DNA of 64,000 bases from NCBI RefSeq assembly GCF_014852005.1, contig NZ_JACVAU010000003.1, forward strand, positions 186,001 through 250,000. Direction: 5' to 3'. The notes beneath the pieces are model-generated. The model saw only the letters and a list, made by a program, of their open reading frames with translations. It was not told the DNA's origin and did not search any database. This stretch comes from Pseudoxanthomonas sp. PXM03. GTDB lineage: Bacteria; Pseudomonadota; Gammaproteobacteria; Xanthomonadales; Xanthomonadaceae. Shown here one piece after another: positions 2,858 through 23,854 of the stretch (its first letter is position 1; each line of letters opens with the position of its first letter). Made by a program: the position numbers and the translations under genes.

Positions 2858-4513
2858 TCAACTGTCGGTCGGGATCGGCGTGCGCTTGACCGGAATCTCC
2901 GGCGGCGGTCGCGCCTTCGGTGGTTCGGGGAACAGGCTGCCCAGGCCGCAACCACCGCCCAACTGCAGCACCGACACCGTGCACTTGAGCTTCATGTTCG
3001 TGCCGGGGATCGAGATTTCCATTTCGCGCACGTTGCGGCGCACCCATTCGGCCAGGAGGGATTCGTTCGGCACCCAGTACTTGTCGAAGGTGGTCGGTTC
3101 GTAGTCGTAAGGGGGACGCTGCAGCCATGTGCCCGCCTCCGCCAGCTGCTCGCGTGTCCACTGATCGTTCTCGCCGCCGGGGGCACCGCGCTGAGTGGTG
3201 GCATCGCCCGCGCCGCCCGGCACCCGCAGGCTGCCGTCGGCGTTGTAGAGGCCTGGCGCATCGCGACCGTCCGCCGCGCTGTCGCCTGCTGCATTGCGGG
3301 TCGAGTTTCCCCAGTCGTCGGTGCCTGCAGGCGTGTTCCATCCGCCGGATTTCGTCGCGGCCGCCGGGCCGGGCGTGGTGGATGCGCGGGAGGGCGTGCC
3401 GCGAGACGTAGCAGGCGAAGCAGACGGGTTCGGCGCCGTTGTCCTCGCCGTTGTCGATGCGGTCGTCGCGGAACCCGTGGTGGCAGGAACCGGTGCGGCG
3501 GTGGCGGGCATAGGTCTCGGTGCCGGCTCGCGGATCTCGGCTTGCCGCACGCTGCGTTCCCGCGTGGCGATGGGGACGGGCGCCACGTCGCGTGCACGCA
3601 CCGGCACGCTGCGGACCTGGGGTGCGGGTGCCATCACCTCGCGCTCGCGTACCTGCACTTCACGCGCTGCCACGACAGGCACGTCCACGCCGCGCACAGG
3701 CGTGTCCCGGCGTATGACCGGCGCCGCGACCGGTGTGGGGATCTCGCGCACCGGTACGCCCGCCTCGCGCAGGGCCGGCAGGGTGACATCGGGCTGCCGC
3801 GGTGTCGGTGGTGGCAGCACGAACGCGCGGGTGGGTTCCGGCACCTCGGTGACCTGCAAGGGCTGGTGCGCAAGTTCGGGCTGTGGAACATGGCGAGACT
3901 GGATCTGCGGCATCTCCACCGCAACGTCGGGCAGCGCCGCTTCGGACGGTGGCGGCGAAGCCTCGGACGGCGCAGGCCGTGCCTGGGCCGCCGTGGCCGC
4001 CTCCTGCGCCGCGGAGTCGGCCTGCGCCGCCTGCTGCGAACCCGGTTCGGCCGCCTGCGCCTCGCCTCCCGCTTCCTCCGGACTGCCGTCGCCGATGATC
4101 TCCAGCCGCACGCGACTGGTGTCGCCGGCTTCCTGTGGCGGTGGCGGAATCTGGACCAGCGCCACCCACATCAGGAACAGGAAGAACAGCAGATGCACGG
4201 CACTGCTGGTGAAGCCTGCGAACCAGCGCATCCAGCGCTCTTCGCGTGGCGGAGGTCCCCAGCCCTGGTAGAACAGCGAGCGGAACGCACGCCACCGGCC
4301 CAAGGCGGCGGGCACGGCATCGGGAGGGCGGGGTGCGCGCGCCAGGAGCAGCGTGACGACCGCGTCGGCCTTCTCGCGCGTGATGCGGCCCAGCTTCTCG
4401 GGAAGCGCCCGCAACCACAGGCCCCAGCCGAACGGCAGGCCGGTGTGGCGTTCAACGATGGGGGCTGCCTTGCGCGACAGCAGCTGCGCGATGACGTCGG
4501 TGGCGTTCGTCAC
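2858..4513 (-). CDS. Proline/alanine-rich single-pass membrane protein (transmembrane repetitive protein type)
   Basis: 551 residues of unknown function. The N-terminal ~95 residues are probably cytoplasmic. One hydrophobic segment lies at about 101-121 ([19 protein letters not shown]). Then come ~300 residues of low-complexity Pro/Ala/Glu/Arg/Val sequence with repeating VxVR/EVxV-type motifs, and a C-terminal ~110-residue region with [15 protein letters not shown] and three Cys. The build (TM anchor, long periplasmic spacer, small terminal domain) resembles TonB-like or envelope-spanning proteins. It lies 15 bases downstream of nfuA on the same strand. Xanthomonad homologues are, from memory, called transmembrane repetitive protein. 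Confidence 0.7.
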
Positions 4514-5125: not shown

Positions 5126-5218
5126 GCGGGTATTCTAGCCCCCTGCCCGACAGGCATTCACGTTCACCGGCCCGTCGTCGGTCTTTGTTCAGACTGGCCG
5201 CAACGCAGGAGAGTCCCC

Positions 5219-5566
5219 ATGTCCGACCTTGTCCCTCTCGCCCGCGCGCACTGCGTGCCGTTGCGTGGCAGCGAGCACCGCCTGCCGCCTGCCCGCGTCG
5301 CCGAACTGCTGCCCCTGGTGCCGGGCTGGGAACTGGTGGAAGAAGGCCACGCACTGCTGCGGACATTTCCGTTCGACAACTACTACGAAACCATGGCGTT
5401 CGTGAATGCGCTCGCCTTCATCGCTCATGCCGAGGACCATCATCCCGACCTGGGTGTGCATTACAACCGCGCCGTCGTGCGCTACTCCACGCATGACGTC
5501 GGCGGCCTGAGCGAGAACGACTTCATCTGCGCGGCCAAGGCCAGCGCCCTGTTGGGAGAATCCTGA
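5219..5566 (+). CDS. phhB: Pterin-4a-carbinolamine dehydratase
   Basis: 115 residues, the family length. It dehydrates 4a-hydroxytetrahydrobiopterin and so recycles the cofactor of phenylalanine hydroxylase. The active-site segment [24 protein letters not shown] (residues 64-87) holds the conserved His-His-Pro and the downstream Asn-x-Val. The ATG at 5219 has caggaga at 5206-5212. Its TGA shares one base with the ATG of the next gene. No phenylalanine hydroxylase gene is nearby, so it may act elsewhere, or as the bifunctional DCoH-type protein. Confidence 0.92.
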
Positions 5567-5999: not shown

Positions 6000-6389
6000 A
6001 TGGAAGGGATCAACGTCTGGGCGGTGCTGGTGGCAGCGGCCTGCAGCTTCCTGTTGGGCGGCATCTGGTACGGACCGCTGTTCGGCAAGGCGTGGAACAA
6101 GGCCGCGGGCATGGACCCGCAGAAGCAGGGGCATCCGGCGAAGATCTTTGGCGGCGCGTTCCTGTTTTCCCTGCTCGCAGCCGGCGTGTTCGCATCCTGG
6201 ATCGGACCGCAGCCGGCGCTGACAACCGCACTCTGCCGCGGCGCGCTGGTCGGTTTCTGCTTCGTGGCGGCCAGCTTCGGCATCAACTATCTGTTCGCGC
6301 AGCGTGGGGCGCGGCTCTGGTTGATCGACGCCGGCTACCACACGCTGCAGTTCACCCTGTTCGGCCTCGTCCTCGGCCTCTGGCACTGA
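6000..6389 (+). CDS. DUF1761-type small membrane protein
   Basis: 129 residues with four hydrophobic segments (INVWAVLVAAACSFLLGGIW; FGGAFLFSLLAAGVFASW; ALCRGALVGFCFVAASFGINYLF; LQFTLFGLVLGLW). The motif GGIWYGPLFGKAW near the N-terminus is characteristic of DUF1761. Function is unknown. An in-frame ATG at 5994 is possible, but gagg at 5988-5991 is spaced properly only for 6000. It is the last gene of the phhB operon and converges on rluC. Confidence 0.78.
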   Translation: MEGINVWAVLVAAACSFLLGGIWYGPLFGKAWNKAAGMDPQKQGHPAKIFGGAFLFSLLAAGVFASWIGPQPALTTALCRGALVGFCFVAASFGINYLFAQRGARLWLIDAGYHTLQFTLFGLVLGLWH

Positions 6390-6398
6390 CGCGATCCG

Positions 6399-7397
6399 TC
6401 AGCCAAGCCGTTCCAGTGCTTCGGCCAGATCCTCGGACAACGGGGCGCTGAGCACATACGGCGTCCTGCCGCCGTCCAGCGCGAACTGCAACGACGCGGC
6501 ATGCAGGAACAGGCGCTTCAGGCCTGCCTGCTCGCGCAGGCGCTTGTTGACGGCCGGGTCGCCGTACTTGTCGTCGCCCGCCACCGGATGACCGATGTGC
6601 TGCGCGTGCACGCGGATCTGGTGGGTGCGGCCGGTCTCGATGCGTACCTCGCAGAACGAATGCCCTCCCCGCCTTTCCAGCACGCGGAAGTGGCTCAACG
6701 ACGCCTTGCCGTCGCGATGCACCTGCACGTGCCGCTCACCGCCCTGGCGCAGGCCGATGTGCAGCGGCGCGTCCACGCTCATCACACCGTCTGGCATGCG
6801 GCCGACCAGCAGCGTCAGGTAGCGCTTCTCGATGGCACGGGTGCCGTCCTCGCTGTCCTCGCGCAGCAGCGCCTGCAGTTCCGACAGCGCCGAGCGCTTC
6901 TTCGCGATCACCAGCAGGCCGGACGTATCCCGGTCCAGCCGGTGCACCAGTTCCAGGGACTGGTGGGGCCGCAGCGCGCGCATGGTTTCGATGGCGCCGT
7001 GGCTGATGCCGCTGCCCCCGTGGCTGGCCACGCCGGTGGGCTTGTTGATGACCAGCAGCCGCTCATCCTCGAACACGATGGCCGCCTCCATCCGCTTCAG
7101 GAAGCCCACGGGGGGCGCGGATTTGTCTCCTGCATCCACGAGACTGACCGGCGGGATCCGTACCTCGTCCCCACCCTCCAGCTTCCGCTCGGCCTTCGCC
7201 CGGCCTCCGTTCACCCGCACCTGGCCGCTCCGCACCAGCTTGTAGACCAGGCTGCGTGGAGCGCCCTTCAGCTGGCCGAGCAGGAAGTTGTCCAGCCGCT
7301 GCCCGCCCCGGTCCTCCGGCACCGTGACCGTCCGCACGGCGCTCTTGGCACCCGCTGCCGGCTTGTCGGATGGGGGGGTGGGGTTGGAAGCATTCAT
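6399..7397 (-). CDS. rluC: 23S rRNA pseudouridine synthase RluC
   Basis: 332 residues. After a short basic/Pro-rich leader comes an S4 RNA-binding domain (about residues 32-90) with GAPRSLVYKLVRSGQVRVNG. The RluA-type catalytic domain follows; its active-site motif HRLDRDTSGLLV puts the nucleophilic Asp at 155, and RTHQIRVH lies further on. RluC makes pseudouridines 955, 2504 and 2580 of 23S rRNA in E. coli. It is divergent from rne, the arrangement conserved in gammaproteobacteria and the reason for choosing RluC over RluD. The ATG at 7397 gives the family length. Confidence 0.93.
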   Translation of the reverse strand: MNASNPTPPSDKPAAGAKSAVRTVTVPEDRGGQRLDNFLLGQLKGAPRSLVYKLVRSGQVRVNGGRAKAERKLEGGDEVRIPPVSLVDAGDKSAPPVGFLKRMEAAIVFEDERLLVINKPTGVASHGGSGISHGAIETMRALRPHQSLELVHRLDRDTSGLLVIAKKRSALSELQALLREDSEDGTRAIEKRYLTLLVGRMPDGVMSVDAPLHIGLRQGGERHVQVHRDGKASLSHFRVLERRGGHSFCEVRIETGRTHQIRVHAQHIGHPVAGDDKYGDPAVNKRLREQAGLKRLFLHAASLQFALDGGRTPYVLSAPLSEDLAEALERLG

Positions 7398-7779: not shown

Positions 7780-10700
7780 ATGAAACGCATGTTGATCAAC
7801 GCCACGCAGGCTGAAGAACTGCGCGTGGCCATCGTCGACGGTCAGACCCTGTACGACATCGATATCGAACAGCCGTCGAAGGAACAGAAGAAGTCCAACA
7901 TCTACAAGGGCCGCATCACCCGGCTCGAGCCCTCCCTGGAAGCCGCCTTCGTCGATTACGGCGCTGACCGCCATGGCTTCCTGCCGCTGAAGGAAATCTC
8001 CCGCGATTACTTCCAGGCCGGCGTCGACCACAACAAGGCCGGCATCCGCGAACTGCTGAAGGAAGGCCAGGAAGTCGTCGTCCAGGTGGACAAGGACGAG
8101 CGCGGCAACAAGGGCGCGGCCCTGACCACGTTCATCTCGCTGGCCGGCCGCTACATGGTGCTGATGCCCAACTCGCCCACCGCCGGTGGCGTGTCGCGCC
8201 GCATCGAGGGCGACGACCGGGCCGAGCTGAAGAAGGCGATGGACGCCCTGGCCATTCCGGACGACATGGGCGTGATCATCCGCACCGCCGGCGTCGGCCG
8301 TGACGCCGAAGAGCTGCAGTGGGACCTGGATTACCTGCTCAGCGTGTGGAAGGCCATCGCCGAAGCGGCGCTGACCAAGCCGGCCCCGTTCCTGATCTAC
8401 CAGGAAAGCCGCCTGATCGTGCGCGCCCTGCGCGACTACCTGCGCAGCGACGTGGGCGAGATCCTGGTCGATACCGACGAACTGTATGAAACCGCCCGCG
8501 AGTTCATGCAGCAGGTCATGCCGCACAACCTGCGCAAGCTGAAGGCGTACAAGGACGACATCCCGCTGTTCAACCGCTTCCAGATCGAATCGCAGATCGA
8601 AGGCGCGTACGAACGCAACGTCCGCCTGCCCTCCGGCGGCTCCATCGTGGTCGACCAGACCGAAGCCCTGACCGCCATCGACGTCAACTCGGCGCGCGCC
8701 ACCAAGGGCGGCGACATCGAAGAGACTGCGTTCCACACCAACATGGAAGCGGCCGAGGAAGTGGCCCGCCAGCTGCGCTTGCGCGACCTGGGCGGCCTGG
8801 TGGTGATCGACTTCATCGACATGTCGAGCAACAAGCACCAGCGCGAAGTCGAGAACAAGCTGCAGAACGCGCTCAAGTACGACCGCGCCCGCGTGCAGAT
8901 CGGCCGCATCTCGCGCTTCGGCCTGCTCGAAATGAGCCGCCAGCGCCTGCGCCCGTCGCTGGGCGAGTCCAGCCAGATCGTCTGCCCGCGCTGCGAAGGC
9001 CATGGCCGCATGCGCAGCGTCGAGTCGCTGTCGCTGTCGATCATCCGCGTGGCCGAAGAGCATGCGATGAAGGACAACACCGGGCAGGTGCTGATCCAGG
9101 CCCCGCTCGAGATCGCCAACTTCCTGCTCAACGAGAAGCGCAGCGCCCTGCGCGAGATCGAACAGCGCCACGACGCGCCCGTCATCATCGTGGCCGACGA
9201 AGCGCTGCACACCCCGCACTACGAAGTCACCCGCATCCGCGAGAACGAGCTGGGCGAAGAAAGCAGCAAGCCCAGCTACCACCGCGGCACCCAGCGCAAG
9301 CTGCCTGTGCATGCGTTGACCAAGGCCCAGCTCAACATCCCCGCCGCGCCCGCCGTCACGCACGTGAAGCACGCGCAGCCGGCGCCGGTACGCGAAGAGC
9401 GCGAAGCCCCCGTGGCGGCCCCCGCACCGGCTCCGGTCGCCACGCCCGTCGCGGTGGCCGCACCCGCCAGCGGCGGTGTGATCGGCTGGTTCAAGCGACT
9501 GCTCGGCGGCAGCGAGGCCACCACGCCCGCACCGCAGGCGCGGCCGCAGCAGGACAACCGCCAGCGCACCGATCGCAACAACGGTCGTCGTGAAAACCGC
9601 GACACCCGCGGCCAGCAGAACCAGGGCCGTGGCGGCAAGCAGGACGGTGGCCGCCGCGACGAGCGCGGCAACAAGAGCCAGAACGCGCAGAACGGCAATG
9701 CCCAGCAGCAGAAGCCGCGCAACGAACAGCAGGCCCCGAAGCCGCAGAAAGCACAGGGCGGCCAGCAGAACGCGCAGGGCAATGCTCCGCAGCAGAAGGC
9801 ACCCAGGCAGGCGCAGCCCGGCAAGCAGGAAGGAGCGCGCCAGCCCAACGCACCGCGCACGCCCCAGCAGGAGACGGCCAAATCGGCTGCCCCGGGCGCT
9901 GACGATGCCGTGATCGCAACGGCGGCCGTGGCAGCCGTGGTCGAAACCACCCGCGTGGCAGCTGTCGTCGAGCCCGCCCTGGTCTCGTCGATCGACGCAC
10001 CGGCACTGGACACCGACGTGACGGATAGCCTGGCAACCCCGGCCAACCCGGACGCCGCTGCGGATGCCGGTGATGGTGGCGAAGGTGGCAGCCGCCGCCG
10101 TCGCGGCCGTCGTGGCGGTCGCCGCCGCCGTCGTGGCAATGGCGAAGGCGCCGCCGCCGGCGAAGAAGGCCTGTCGGTCGACGACCTCGGCAGCGATGAC
10201 GAAGCCCCGGTGGCCGACCGTTCGCAGCCCGAGTTCGATTTCGATGACGAAGAGCCGGCCGTCGCCGCTCCCCGTCAGCCGAAGCCCCAGGCCATCGATG
10301 CACCGGTACGTGAGCGCACCACGCCGGCTGCCATCGCGCCGGTCGCGGCCGTGGCTGTCATGGCAGACGTCCCGGCGGCCGAGGCGCCCCAGGCGTCGAC
10401 GCCCGCCCCCGTCGTGGTCGAGGCCGCGCAGGCGGCCGATGTCATCGAGGACGTGAAGGCCCGGGCTGTGCTCGCCCAGCCCGAGGTGACGGCCACGGTG
10501 CAGGAAGAAGCACCGGCAGCCGTCGCCATCGTCGAGACGGTGAAGGCCGAGATCGCCGCCGAACCCGTGCCGGCGCTCGAAGCGCCGGTCGTGGTGGCGG
10601 AAGCCATCGCAGCGCCCCCCGCCGCAGCCGAGGTCTCGGTGACCGACGTGCGCAGCGAGCCCGTGCAGATCGATCTGGTCGACGCCGTGAACGAAGCCGC

Positions 10701-18458: not shown

Positions 18459-18566
18459 TCTTGCCTCCGGAGAACAGATGAATCCCTCTCGGACCAATTT
18501 ATCGCCTCGCGCGCCGGGAATACAGTGCGCGCCATCCCGGGCTTCCCGCCCGCACCGGAGACCCAC

Positions 18567-19409
18567 ATGAAACTGCTCGCCCCCCTCGCCGCTGCCGTCC
18601 TGCTCGCCGTCGCCTCGGCCAACGCCCAGGCCGCCCACGTACTGGTGGTGCTGTCCGATGCCGACCACCTCGACCTGCGCGACGGCCAGATCTACCCCAC
18701 CGGCTTCTACCTCAACGAACTGATGCAGCCGGTCAAGGCGCTGCGCGACGCCGGCCACGAGATCACCTTCGCCACGCCGGAAGGCCGCGCACCGACGGTG
18801 GACCGCACCTCGGTGGACAAGGCCTACTTCGGCAACGACGCTGCCAGCCTGCAATCGCACGCCGACCTGCTGGCGCAGTTGAAGCTGACGTCCGCCACCC
18901 AGTCGCCGGTGCTCAGCCTGGCCCGGGTGGAACAGATCGGTTACGGCGAATTCGACGCCGTCTACATGCCCGGCGGCCACGCGCCCATGCAGGACCTGCT
19001 GGCCAGCCCGGCGCTGGGCCGCCTGCTGACCGACTTCCACCAGCAGGGCAAGCCCACCGCCCTGGTCTGCCACGGCCCCATCGCCCTGCTCTCCACGCTG
19101 CCGGGCAACGCCGCCTTCGTGCAGCGGATGGAGCGCGACAACCGCGCCCCGGCGCCGGCCGACTGGATCTATGCCGGCTATCAGGTCACGGTGATCAGCA
19201 ACGAGGAAGAAGAACAGGCCAAGGCTGCGCTCAACGGCGGCCGCATGAAGTTCTACCCGCAGACGGCACTGCAGCAGGCGGGCGTGCAGTACCGCAGCAA
19301 TGCCCAGCCGTGGCAGTCGAACGTGGTGGTCGATCGGGAACTGATCACCGGCCAGAACCCGGCCTCGGCGGTGGGTGTGGCGAAGGTGTTGCTGGAGCGG
19401 TTGGACTGA
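18567..19409 (+). CDS. Exported DJ-1/PfpI-family protein (type 1 glutamine amidotransferase-like)
   Basis: 280 residues. A signal peptide is predicted (MKLLAPLAAAVLLAVASANAQAA), which is unusual for this mainly cytosolic superfamily. The DJ-1/PfpI fold shows VLSDADHLDLRDGQIYPTGF, YMPGGHAPMQDL and the nucleophile elbow ALVCHGP (Cys168). The long insertions resemble the Hsp31/glyoxalase III-like branch, so chaperone, deglycase or methylglyoxal-related activity is possible. ggag lies upstream of the ATG. It is divergently paired with a LysR regulator. Confidence 0.82.
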   Translation: MKLLAPLAAAVLLAVASANAQAAHVLVVLSDADHLDLRDGQIYPTGFYLNELMQPVKALRDAGHEITFATPEGRAPTVDRTSVDKAYFGNDAASLQSHADLLAQLKLTSATQSPVLSLARVEQIGYGEFDAVYMPGGHAPMQDLLASPALGRLLTDFHQQGKPTALVCHGPIALLSTLPGNAAFVQRMERDNRAPAPADWIYAGYQVTVISNEEEEQAKAALNGGRMKFYPQTALQQAGVQYRSNAQPWQSNVVVDRELITGQNPASAVGVAKVLLERLD

Positions 19410-19471
19410 CCCTCACCGACCGGCGCCTGCCCAGCGCCTGCCTTTCCGGCGGGCGCAGGGGGCGCCCGTAC

Positions 19472-19745
19472 GTCTCTTCTCACACAAAGAGTGTCGCGAC
19501 ACCCTGAAAGGTCCGTTCTTCTCACAGTAGGGGTATCGCGACACCCGAAAAGATCCGTTCTTCTCACAGTAAGGGTGTCGCGAGACCGGAAAAGATCCGC
19601 GCGACACTGAAAAAGGTCCACGCGAGACCGAAAAAGCGTCTCTCTTCTCACAGTCCGGGTATCGGGAGACCGGAAAAGACCCATGCGACACCGGAAAAGA
19701 GTGGCGCGCGACTAAAAAAGGTCCAACGACCTTCGCGACACGCTC
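19472..19745. repeat. 21-bp-periodic repeat array
   Basis: A degenerate array with strict 21-bp phasing. Type-B units (tcgcgacacccgaaaagatc and relatives) begin at 19494, 19536, 19578, 19599, 19620, 19662 and 19683, all spaced by 21 or 42. Type-A units (cttctcacagtaagggt and relatives) begin at 19476, 19518, 19560 and 19644, spaced 42, 42 and 84. Phase is lost after about 19700. Because 21 is a multiple of three, every frame shows 7- or 14-residue peptide repeats, but no frame has a ribosome site. It fills the gap between two convergent genes. Confidence 0.85.
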
Positions 19746-19749
19746 GGCG

Positions 19750-20916
19750 TCAGTCGATGAACGCCTTCTTGCCGTATTCCCAGTTCCACGGCACGCCGGT
19801 TTCCCCCAGCACGAAGGCCACCAGCCGCGGGAATGCGCGCTCGGCGCGCACGTCGTTGCCCAGGATCACCACGCAGCGCCTGCGCTGCTTCACGCACACC
19901 CAGGTGTTGCCGGTGGAATCGTTGTGCCCGCCCTTGTAGAAGCCGGGGCCCTGCGGTCCCTCGAACACCACCACGCCCAGCCCGGCGGCCAGGTCCTTGC
20001 GGCGCTGCGCGGGCGGGAGTTCGTCCTGCAACGTGGGGAATTGCGAAGCCGTCGTGATCGGCCGTTGCGGCGACGTCATCGCGGCGAACGTGTCCGCGCG
20101 CAAGCCCTCGCCGTTGATGTACGCCGCGGCGACGTTCGCCATGTCGGCGATGGTGGTATCCATCGAACCGGCGGCACGCACGCGGCTACGTTCGTCGTGC
20201 GGCTCGACGGTGCCGTCTTCTGTCCAGCCATCGGCGAGGTTGGCGGCGAAGTCGGGGCGCCAGATCATGCTGGTGTTCGGCATGCCGAAACGGTCGAACA
20301 CGCGCCGCTGCATCTCCGCGCCGAGGTCCAGGCCCAGCCCGCGCTCGATCACGTACTGCAGCAGGATCAGGCCCTCGCCCGAGTACGCATAACGGGTGCC
20401 GGGATCGAAGTGGAAGCGCAGCTTCCCGTCGGGTTCGAGGTAGGCGAAGTTGGCGAAGCCGCTGCTGTGGGTCAGCAGGTGGCGTGCGGTGATCGTCTTC
20501 CAGCGCGGATCGCCGGCCAGATCGGGCCACGGGCCGTAGGCGTCTTCGGCCGGGTACTCGGTCAGCGGCTTGTCGAGGTACTCGCCGACGGGACGGTCCA
20601 GGTCGAGCCTGCCCTCCTCCACCAGTTGCATCACGGTGTAGGCGAACACCGCCTTGGTCAGCGAGGCGCCGTACATCACGGTGTCGGTCTGCAACGGATC
20701 GCCTTTCGCATTGCGCTGGCCGTAGGCGGCCACGTGCACCACCTTGCCATCGTCGATCACCGCGATGGCAAGGCCGTTGGCCTGCGCGGCCTTCATCGCA
20801 GCGGCGACTTCGGCATCCAGCGCGGCGCGGGTGGGAATGGGATGCGGCGCAGGTCCTGCCGCAGACGCGGCGAACGGCAGCATGGCGAGCAGGCAGATTC
20901 CGAGCAGTGGACGCAT
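19750..20916 (-). CDS. Exported serine beta-lactamase-family hydrolase
   Basis: 388 residues with a Sec signal peptide (cleavage near ASA-AG). The beta-lactamase/penicillin-binding fold has the nucleophile motif SLTK (Ser85, Lys88), LLTHSSGFANF and the second-motif tyrosine in RYAYSGEGLILLQYVIE (Tyr178, with Gly in place of the usual Asn). KGGHNDSTGNTW is probably the KTG-equivalent. Such class C-like proteins are usually esterases or peptidases rather than resistance enzymes. The stop lies directly next to the 21-bp repeat array. Confidence 0.85.
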   Translation of the reverse strand: MRPLLGICLLAMLPFAASAAGPAPHPIPTRAALDAEVAAAMKAAQANGLAIAVIDDGKVVHVAAYGQRNAKGDPLQTDTVMYGASLTKAVFAYTVMQLVEEGRLDLDRPVGEYLDKPLTEYPAEDAYGPWPDLAGDPRWKTITARHLLTHSSGFANFAYLEPDGKLRFHFDPGTRYAYSGEGLILLQYVIERGLGLDLGAEMQRRVFDRFGMPNTSMIWRPDFAANLADGWTEDGTVEPHDERSRVRAAGSMDTTIADMANVAAAYINGEGLRADTFAAMTSPQRPITTASQFPTLQDELPPAQRRKDLAAGLGVVVFEGPQGPGFYKGGHNDSTGNTWVCVKQRRRCVVILGNDVRAERAFPRLVAFVLGETGVPWNWEYGKKAFID

Positions 20917-21366: not shown

Positions 21367-21982
21367 CGTAGGATGGGTCGAGCGAAGCGACACCCATCAA
21401 CACCATCCCCGAGGTCAAGGAATGACCGACTACCGACGCACCCTCATCCCCGGTGCCACCTACTTCTTCACCGTCAATCTCGCCGACCGTCGTGAAACGC
21501 TGCTGGTCGACCACATCGACCTGTTACGCGATGCATTCCGGTACGTGCGCCGCCGCCATCCGTTCGATATCGACGCCATGGTCGTGCTTCCGGATCACCT
21601 GCACGCCATCTTGACCTTACCATCCGGCGACGCCGATTTCCCCCTGCGCTGGCGCCTTATCAAGACCTGGTTTTCACGCCACCTGCCCCACGGCGAACAT
21701 CGACGCGCGAGCCGTATCAACGAAGGCGAGCGCGGCATCTGGCAACGGCGATATTGGGAGCATCTGATACGCGATGAGGCCGACTTCGCGCGGCATGTGG
21801 ACTACATCCACTGGAATCCGGTGAAGCATGGGCACGTGGCGCGTGATGTGGATTGGCCTTACTCCACATTCCATCGGTTTGTGCAGGATGGGGTGTTGAC
21901 GGAGAATTGGGCTTGCGCTGAAAACGACGCTGGCTTCGGAGAGCGCTACTGATGGGTATCGCTGCGCTCAACCCATCCTACG
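21367..21982 (+). mobile_element. RAYT unit: transposase gene flanked by inverted REP elements (family B)
   Basis: Left REP 21367-21398 (cgtaggatgggtcgagcg-aagcgacacccatc) and right REP 21951-21982 (gatgggtatcgctgcgctca-acccatcctacg) are inverted copies. They bracket a REP-associated tyrosine transposase gene, and the right REP overlaps its stop codon. The same REP occurs as close inverted pairs at 22839-22927 and 23749-23854. RAYTs process single-stranded REP hairpins and are thought to spread them. Confidence 0.85.
21422..21952 (+). CDS. REP-associated tyrosine transposase (RAYT, Y1/IS200-like)
   Basis: 176 residues. The HUH nuclease fold opens with YFFTVNLADRRETLL. The metal-binding HUH motif is in MVVLPDHLHAIL (His-Leu-His) and the catalytic tyrosine is in VDYIHWNPVKHGHV. 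Both are intact, so the enzyme looks active. Length and motifs fit the RAYT subgroup rather than IS200/IS605 TnpA. The ATG at 21422 follows agg/aagga; the frame extends upstream only through REP sequence. Confidence 0.92.
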   Translation: MTDYRRTLIPGATYFFTVNLADRRETLLVDHIDLLRDAFRYVRRRHPFDIDAMVVLPDHLHAILTLPSGDADFPLRWRLIKTWFSRHLPHGEHRRASRINEGERGIWQRRYWEHLIRDEADFARHVDYIHWNPVKHGHVARDVDWPYSTFHRFVQDGVLTENWACAENDAGFGERY

Positions 21983-22838: not shown

Positions 22839-22927
22839 CGTAGGATGGGTTGAGCGCAGCGATACCCATCATCACGGACCATCCGACACAACGAACCGAT
22901 GGGTATCGCTACGCTCAACCCATCCCA
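22839..22927. repeat. Inverted REP pair (REPIN-like), family B
   Basis: Copy 22839-22870 (cgtaggatgggttgagcg...) faces copy 22898-22927 (gatgggtatcgctacgctca...), separated by 27 bases. This head-to-head doublet is the form proposed as the mobile unit moved by RAYTs. Each copy matches those flanking the transposase with one to three differences. Confidence 0.88.
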
Positions 22928-22939
22928 CCTTTCTTGCGG

Positions 22940-23748: not shown

Positions 23749-23854
23749 AGGATGGGATGAGCGTAGCGCCTTTCAACGACAAAGCCGATTACCAATCAGC
23801 GCGGAGATAAGACACCCCGAAGCGATGGGTATCGCTACGCTCAACCCATCCTAC
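23749..23854. repeat. Degenerate inverted REP pair, family B
   Basis: A decayed left copy (23749-23770, aggatgggatgagcgtagcg) faces a well-preserved right copy (23824-23854). They lie between the DUF5694-like gene and tRNA-Ser. Confidence 0.75.

Follow-up and report, generated by a model that had tools for sequence, protein, structure and literature searches.

The window analyzed here, a stretch of 64,000 nucleotides from Pseudoxanthomonas sp. PXM03, holds a tandem array of 21-bp units, which we call tiles. The array lies between a DJ-1/PfpI family gene on the plus strand and a serine hydrolase gene on the minus strand, and the two genes converge on it, as the first-pass annotation of the locus had described. 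A gene for a RAYT (REP-associated tyrosine transposase) is found about 1.7 kb from the array. The features of the locus are as follows.

18552–19409, plus strand: DJ-1/PfpI family gene (PF01965; start not settled), convergent on the array
19476–19727, plus strand: 12-tile array (21 bp per tile), with TCT (19473–19475) just ahead
19476–19496, plus strand: A tile 1 (CTTCTC linker type)
19518–19538, plus strand: A tile 2
19560–19580, plus strand: A tile 3
19581–19643, plus strand: three consecutive B tiles (A/T-linker type)
19644–19664, plus strand: A tile 4
19665–19727, plus strand: three consecutive B tiles, end of the array
19728–19745, plus strand: degraded half-tile, out of register, with TCGCGACAC at 19733–19741
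19750–20916, minus strand: serine hydrolase with beta-lactamase fold (PF00144), convergent on the array
21368–21398, plus strand: GTAG-headed REP upstream of the RAYT gene, not of the array type
21422–21952, plus strand: RAYT gene (NF047646, 197 bits, cut-off 80), about 1.7 kb from the array
21951–21981, minus strand: inverted GTAG-headed REP downstream of the RAYT gene

The RAYT start was placed at 21422, within an open reading frame running from 21362, as residue 24 of that frame is where the match to the family starts. Inside 19475–19699, TRF scored arrays of period 42, 21 and 84 at 180, 81 and 207, the three top scores of the window. A sequence-agnostic lag score, defined as matches at lags 21/42/63/84 minus those at other multiples of 3, had its maximum over the 64 kb at 19472 (0.36), and control periods of 15–33 gave at most 0.118. 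By both measures the 21-bp array proposed for 19472–19745 is real. It consists of 12 in-register tiles in the order ABABABBBABBB; the mosaic of A and B units noted earlier stands, with one B tile more than had been listed. Both unit types are indeed present, although they have a common anatomy. The reported phasing of A/T runs also holds, since almost all tiles have an A/T-rich linker in phase, an exception being the fourth A tile (AGTCC). The same genome has at least four arrays (on contigs C5 and C3, and two on C4).

The anatomy of the unit was derived from 384 tiles out of 32 arrays. In these arrays the tile follows a 3-5-5-5-3 layout of half core, arm, linker, arm and half core. The linker resembles A5 or T5; A tiles have ACTAA there, after CTTCTC(A/T)C. 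Each tile edge bisects a 6-bp core, which makes the palindrome cross the tile boundary, and the array can therefore also be described as 16-bp dyads with 5-bp spacers. Dyad cores are mostly AACGTT and TCGCGA: at the 211 edges that do not lead into an A tile, AAC met GTT in 55 cases and TCG met CGA in 48. Complementarity at these 211 edges was 0.643, compared to 0.443 after shuffling across all arrays (z 12.4) and 0.564 after shuffling within the same array (z 7.5), and the excess sits mostly in the core. Arms paired at four or more of five positions at 65 of the 211 edges (36 in shuffles) and perfectly at 23 (10.7 in shuffles). As most of the excess lies in the core and the count of perfect arms falls within the shuffle maximum of 25, the arm signal is modest. 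Edges leading into an A tile (n = 141) are not palindromic and showed no excess (complementarity 0.224). Inside B tiles complementarity was 0.422, above the all-array shuffle (0.380) but not above the same-array shuffle (0.428). The arms differ widely from array to array. In the window, five of the 11 array edges pair at 5/8 or more positions, an example being the boundary palindrome formed by GGGTATCG and CGACACCC with 7/8 pairs, and the three edges leading into A tiles do not pair (1–2/8). Two apparent features were discarded: a 10.5-bp distance between the two best dyads (30/54), since an exact 21-bp repeat with one dyad contains the other, and an inverted A linker in some arrays, where it is the A5/T5 linker that differs.

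Arrays of the same or closely related tile kinds, some of them remnants, were found in 14 of 38 Pseudoxanthomonas genomes. At least 59 arrays are listed; they were gathered from match lists, belong to both tile families and include weak remnants in G301 (0.81 Mb), G021 (1.23 Mb) and G019 (C16). Carrier genomes have 2–8 array loci each among the matches listed, in a count that excludes solitary tiles. With BLASTN the window array was detected in 8 of 61 and in 5 of 297 genomes, its own genome included both times and all hits in one genus. A covariance model built from 90 A and B units recovered, at E 0.1, 14 of the 38 genus genomes among the matches listed, G027 only at 0.015. Applied to the family at E 0.01 with stricter filters, the same model matched 7 of 297 genomes, all in one of 54 genera, with no match in the other 53. 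A pattern of two A tiles 42 bp apart, scanned over 84,980 species, returned six stretches, five of them in Pseudoxanthomonas. The sixth (L073) comes from a contig of 4 kb that bears the label Nostoc sp. CHAB 5824; it is similar to P. mexicana L043 in both its tiles and its right flank, and so is probably a contaminating Pseudoxanthomonas contig. A wide taxonomic distribution is ruled out by the BLASTN, covariance model and pattern searches. Phage or plasmid cargo was also rejected: the window array had no phage or plasmid match, and the two-A-tile pattern gave no match in viral contigs. Related tile kinds, of the TTTCGATCCA type and the AGGCT type, have the same 21-bp pitch. In the open-access literature that was searched we found no mention of these arrays, and a term search of PMC12306157 gave no relevant match. 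Four other repeat loci were dismissed as arrays, L145 and L206 as a coding repeat and L230 and L252 as simple repeats. The repeat in L145 (~2971–3400, G024 C3) is an imperfect 21-bp (7-codon) coding repeat as judged by its open frame and a false positive of the lag scan.

In a parE tree of 20 genomes, comprising the 14 carriers and six chosen non-carriers and rooted on G010, the carriers and G013 formed one clade with a local support of 0.994. In a gyrB tree of all 38 genomes with a midpoint root, 11 carriers and G013 grouped together, and G000, G014 and G301 fell elsewhere. Since the gyrB tree splits the carriers, a single origin rests on parE. The conflict between the gyrB genes of G000, G014 and G301 (L263, L262 and L260) and parE could reflect gyrB transfer. 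Judged by eye from translations, different genes adjoin the arrays in related species (L031, L034, L037, L058 and the window), and the arrays may sit at gene-order breakpoints.

The spacing of the tiles is tightly kept. Of 121 distances from one A tile to another, counted in 30 of the 32 arrays (the other two having a single A match), 118 were multiples of 21. L041, L057 and L070 hold the three breaks; register also slips close to the L036 array end and, with a spacing of 43, at one point in L079. Comparison of relatives had been suggested as a check, and in them the 21-bp spacing is indeed kept while unit order and number vary. The refuting case named earlier, an array confined to one strain and with drifting spacing in relatives, did not hold up, as there are at least 59 arrays in 14 species and, in the 30 arrays counted, 118/121 spacings are intact. 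Tile identity is less stable. In G014 the array adjoining the same DJ-1/PfpI gene has AGGC-type tiles, unlike the window; the two neighborhoods have 4.8 kb in common, and the gene on the other side of the array differs. In G020, G027 and G016 the TTTCGATCCA tile type comes after the same serine hydrolase. Tile letters thus turn over while the 21-bp pitch persists.

Multiples of 21 would also be preserved by unequal exchange in a passive minisatellite without function. TRF scores the array as a tandem repeat, and as in minisatellites and VNTRs the units run head to tail and copy number differs by whole tiles: six of the 15 gaps found in 14 pairs of related arrays were 21, 42 or 63. The ratio of gaps to substitutions was alike in arrays (15 per 680) and flanks (77 per 2463) when all gaps were counted, in a comparison where the flanks take in genes and have gaps of many lengths and where pairs have members in common. 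On the other side, two more of the 15 gaps add up to 21 (1+20) and the remaining seven lie at the end of, or beyond, one partner's array; of the 15 clade members sampled for parE, 14 carry arrays among the matches listed; and the 118/121 spacings are intact despite large divergence. Furthermore, substitutions are not spread evenly along the tile. Between related arrays, changes were found at 65/468 core, 102/676 A linker and 190/780 arm positions. By tile segment the rates were 0.15 for the A linker, 0.11–0.17 for the half cores, 0.18 for the B linker and 0.23–0.25 for the arms. Cores and CTTCTC/A linkers thus change at ~0.6 times the arm rate, as estimated from ten overlapping pairs with tiles matched by best offset and A tiles recognized partly by their linker. 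The uniform drift of sequence and spacing expected of a minisatellite was not observed, and the tile-type mosaic, clade-wide persistence and rate differences along the tile set the arrays apart from minisatellites and VNTRs. We therefore disfavor this explanation as unlikely.

We also considered the direction of the arrays relative to replication, with the origin assumed from gene order to lie beside gyrB. Of the 21 arrays on gyrB-bearing contigs, 18 have the CTTCTC strand directed away from the origin and hence along the fork. This set includes L035, L062 and L081 with one A match each and omits the array of G027 at 0.03 Mb, which has no clear A tile. The exceptions are the arrays of G014 (2.33 Mb), G301 (0.81 Mb) and G028 (1.44 Mb). 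When arrays were grouped by shared flanks, 7/8 groups were mostly with the fork; grouping by one common flank chained 35 of the 59 arrays, probably via REP/RAYT sequence in the flanks, and was set aside as unreliable. The window array itself seems to run against the fork, GC skew being negative in all eight 8-kb bins. The GC skew of small loci had no predictive value for the replichore (13/21), and orientation is therefore not extendable to 33 further arrays (17/33 positive). The CTTCTC strand would be the lagging-strand template, which we treat as a lead and not as a result.

A 21-bp pitch, dyad symmetry, slowly changing cores and A linkers, A/T linkers in phase and a possible replication-direction bias (18/21) would suit an operator-like array, in which a dyad-symmetric DNA-binding protein would occupy 16-bp sites every two helical turns on one face of the DNA, separated by A/T spacers. 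Such binding could be cooperative and could possibly serve looping or a nucleoid or segregation function. Sites also repeat at whole helical turns in iterons, centromere-like sites and operator arrays. The present arrays differ from these in lying at several chromosomal places per genome and in having arms that are not conserved, and the window array had no plasmid or phage match. The wide arm variation among arrays and the different tile letters of the G014 array at the same DJ-1/PfpI gene are odd for one binder, and edges leading into A tiles are not palindromic (0.224). An operator-like array thus seems doubtful, if a reasonable contender.

The genomic positions of the arrays bear on a role at the level of RNA or protein. 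Among 55 scanned regions, 15 positions were convergent, 28 codirectional, 5 divergent and 7 unclassified, according to crude gene calls that missed the RAYT gene of the window. Arrays in these regions lie between genes or touch gene ends, with the exception of L062, an array missed by the scan. Such positions agree with a chain of small hairpins at mRNA 3′ ends that would act as terminator, attenuator, stability element or sRNA. Predicted RNA folding was at least 2 sd more stable than that of dinucleotide shuffles in 25/30 arrays for the CTTCTC strand, and A-C mismatches are depleted at dyads (99 vs. 117.6) while G-T mismatches are not (129 vs. 133.8). However, the other strand folds as well (20/30), L033 folds less stably than its shuffles, and array orientation does not track the neighboring genes. 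In the window, a scan of 19350–19800 turned up a single terminator-like site, where 0.7 were expected, and nothing promoter-like. A search of 19300–19900 against Rfam up to E 5 gave three matches, all far under gathering scores, in agreement with the earlier remark that no named family like it was known to the annotator. An RNA-level element is, on this balance, rather improbable. A protein-coding repeat, which would have spoken against a non-coding role, finds even less support. The pitch of 21 corresponds to seven codons; of the 30 arrays, 21 are free of stops in the best frame, which is on the minus strand, and 18 in one frame of the plus strand. Yet this best frame has stops in the other 9/30 arrays, no frame is open in all 30, and strand relative to the genes varies, which makes coding hardly credible.

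The RAYT gene of the window is associated with REPs of its own. A GTAG/GTGG-headed REP (GGATGGGT...ACCCATC) occurs in five copies, at 21368–21398, 21951–21981, 22840–22870, 22898–22928 and 23824–23854, of which the first two flank the RAYT gene in inverted orientation as in a classic REPtron. The flanking copies were found with a pattern taken from the visible REP; an initial inverted-repeat search around the gene had found none. Arrays are over-represented near one clade of such genes. In the 14 carriers 34 RAYT genes of this clade were gathered (E 1e−20), and 16 of the 59 arrays, including that of the window, lie within 2 kb of a clade member, against 0.16 expected under even placement. None of the 59 arrays is near any of 23 other Y1_Tnp genes. 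The 16 RAYT-adjacent arrays represent three neighborhoods with common flanks, or 11 positions if both flanks must match; with only three independent neighborhoods the Poisson figure is not readable as a P-value. Repeat clusters in L165, L169 and L180, found by looking beside RAYT genes, were left out of the count. Those in L165 (~6218–6560, G000 C4) and L180 (~5160–5540, G029 C1) are of a third, more irregular kind, with AAGGCAATTTGCCTT palindromes and GGTGAGA elements 0.7–1.7 kb from RAYT genes, and L169 (~7833–8200, G016 C4) has a cluster of GCGCGCAAG-type units with a rough 21-bp spacing ~3 kb from a RAYT gene.

Co-occurrence gave a mixed picture among the matches listed: 13 of the 15 parE clade members on the tree have both arrays and a clade RAYT; a clade RAYT is missing, too, from G013, the one genome without arrays inside the carrier clade; G301 has arrays without one; and 10 array-free genomes have a clade RAYT. 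No 21-bp array was found at 27 RAYT loci of array-free congeners (~4 kb per side where contigs allow), where a lag score of 0.174 was due to a coding repeat, or at 16 RAYT loci in other genera, where a score of 0.11 was due to a simple repeat. The flanks of 29 further RAYT loci (~1.5 kb per side; 25 from other genera) were also without an array.

Of known systems, BIMEs and REP clusters with their RAYT genes (REPtrons) are closest in behavior. Like the arrays, they are extragenic palindromic units in regular clusters in which palindromy is partly kept despite letter change, and many BIMEs and REP clusters are rayt-linked; the dyads and their positions between genes or at gene ends fit this description. 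A REP or BIME carries a GTAG/GGAG tetranucleotide head on each unit, and usually over 100 dispersed units are present per genome; its repeat stands on either side of its rayt gene, and RAYT binds and cleaves the unit in single-stranded form. The arrays differ in their short dyads (16 bp), their 21-bp pitch and their scarcity of GTAG tags, and array loci are few per genome (solitary units being outside this count). GTAG/CTAC, the form of the head that was counted (GGAG being outside the count), is rare in the tiles: the 384 tiles contain it 11 times and mononucleotide shuffles 59 times, so that a head is not present on each unit. The array repeat also differs from the REP of the window RAYT and, at this one gene, does not stand on both sides of it. 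The family works most like a BIME, but neither its head sequence nor the REP belonging to the neighboring RAYT makes it one. The Mb REPs of the Marinomonas REPtron, which according to the accessible part of PMC8266576 are very small hairpins with 5-bp stems processed by RAYT on single-stranded DNA, resemble the putative hairpins of the arrays in size. They differ in having a GTAG guide, and RAYT processing of the arrays is only putative.

Our best reading is that the arrays, with their 16+5 anatomy, kept register, restricted distribution, slower cores and A linkers, lack of a frame open throughout and enrichment near a RAYT clade, form an unnamed, clade-restricted family of extragenic, pitch-fixed hairpin arrays that is BIME-like. 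For their origin we tentatively propose RAYT-assisted turnover of 21-nt hairpin tiles, as one possible account. Since 16-nt dyads are set 5 nt apart, the pitch is 21 nt. Each dyad would fold into a small hairpin in single-stranded DNA, probably on the lagging-strand template, which is the target of IS608 and ISDra2 (accessible part of PMC6006769). Whole 21-nt tiles would be added, removed and replaced near RAYT loci through the joint action of a hairpin-recognizing HUH enzyme from the RAYT clade and of recombination between tiles. Such whole-tile hairpin turnover would account for letters that shift at a constant pitch. Arrays at gene 3′ ends may secondarily affect transcripts or supercoiling in BIME fashion. 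For RAYT-assisted turnover we count the register (118/121), the edge complementarity, the slower cores and linkers, the RAYT proximity, the absence of both array and clade RAYT in G013, the orientation (18/21) and the direct association of one third of rayt genes with BIMEs (accessible part of PMC2817692). Against it count the reduction to three neighborhoods, G301, the 10 array-free genomes with a clade RAYT and the array-free RAYT loci elsewhere, as well as the GTAG REPs that the window RAYT has of its own, the GTAG-poor tiles, the modest arm pairing, the orientation reducing to 7/8 groups and the window array seemingly running against the fork.

In a more far-reaching form, to which we give little credence, the arrays would be a letter-free, pitch-fixed repeat class, where a RAYT acting on single strands of the lagging-strand template would set the 21-nt period and rebuild tiles at RAYT-rich neighborhoods. 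If true, the arrays would be a record of enzyme geometry and not of sequence. The keeping of spacing but not of letters offers a clean handle on how clusters of bacterial palindromic repeats are built, which is an open question for BIMEs and domesticated RAYT transposases. The question is testable, since among the sampled clade members some species combine arrays with RAYT, one has arrays alone and one lacks both.
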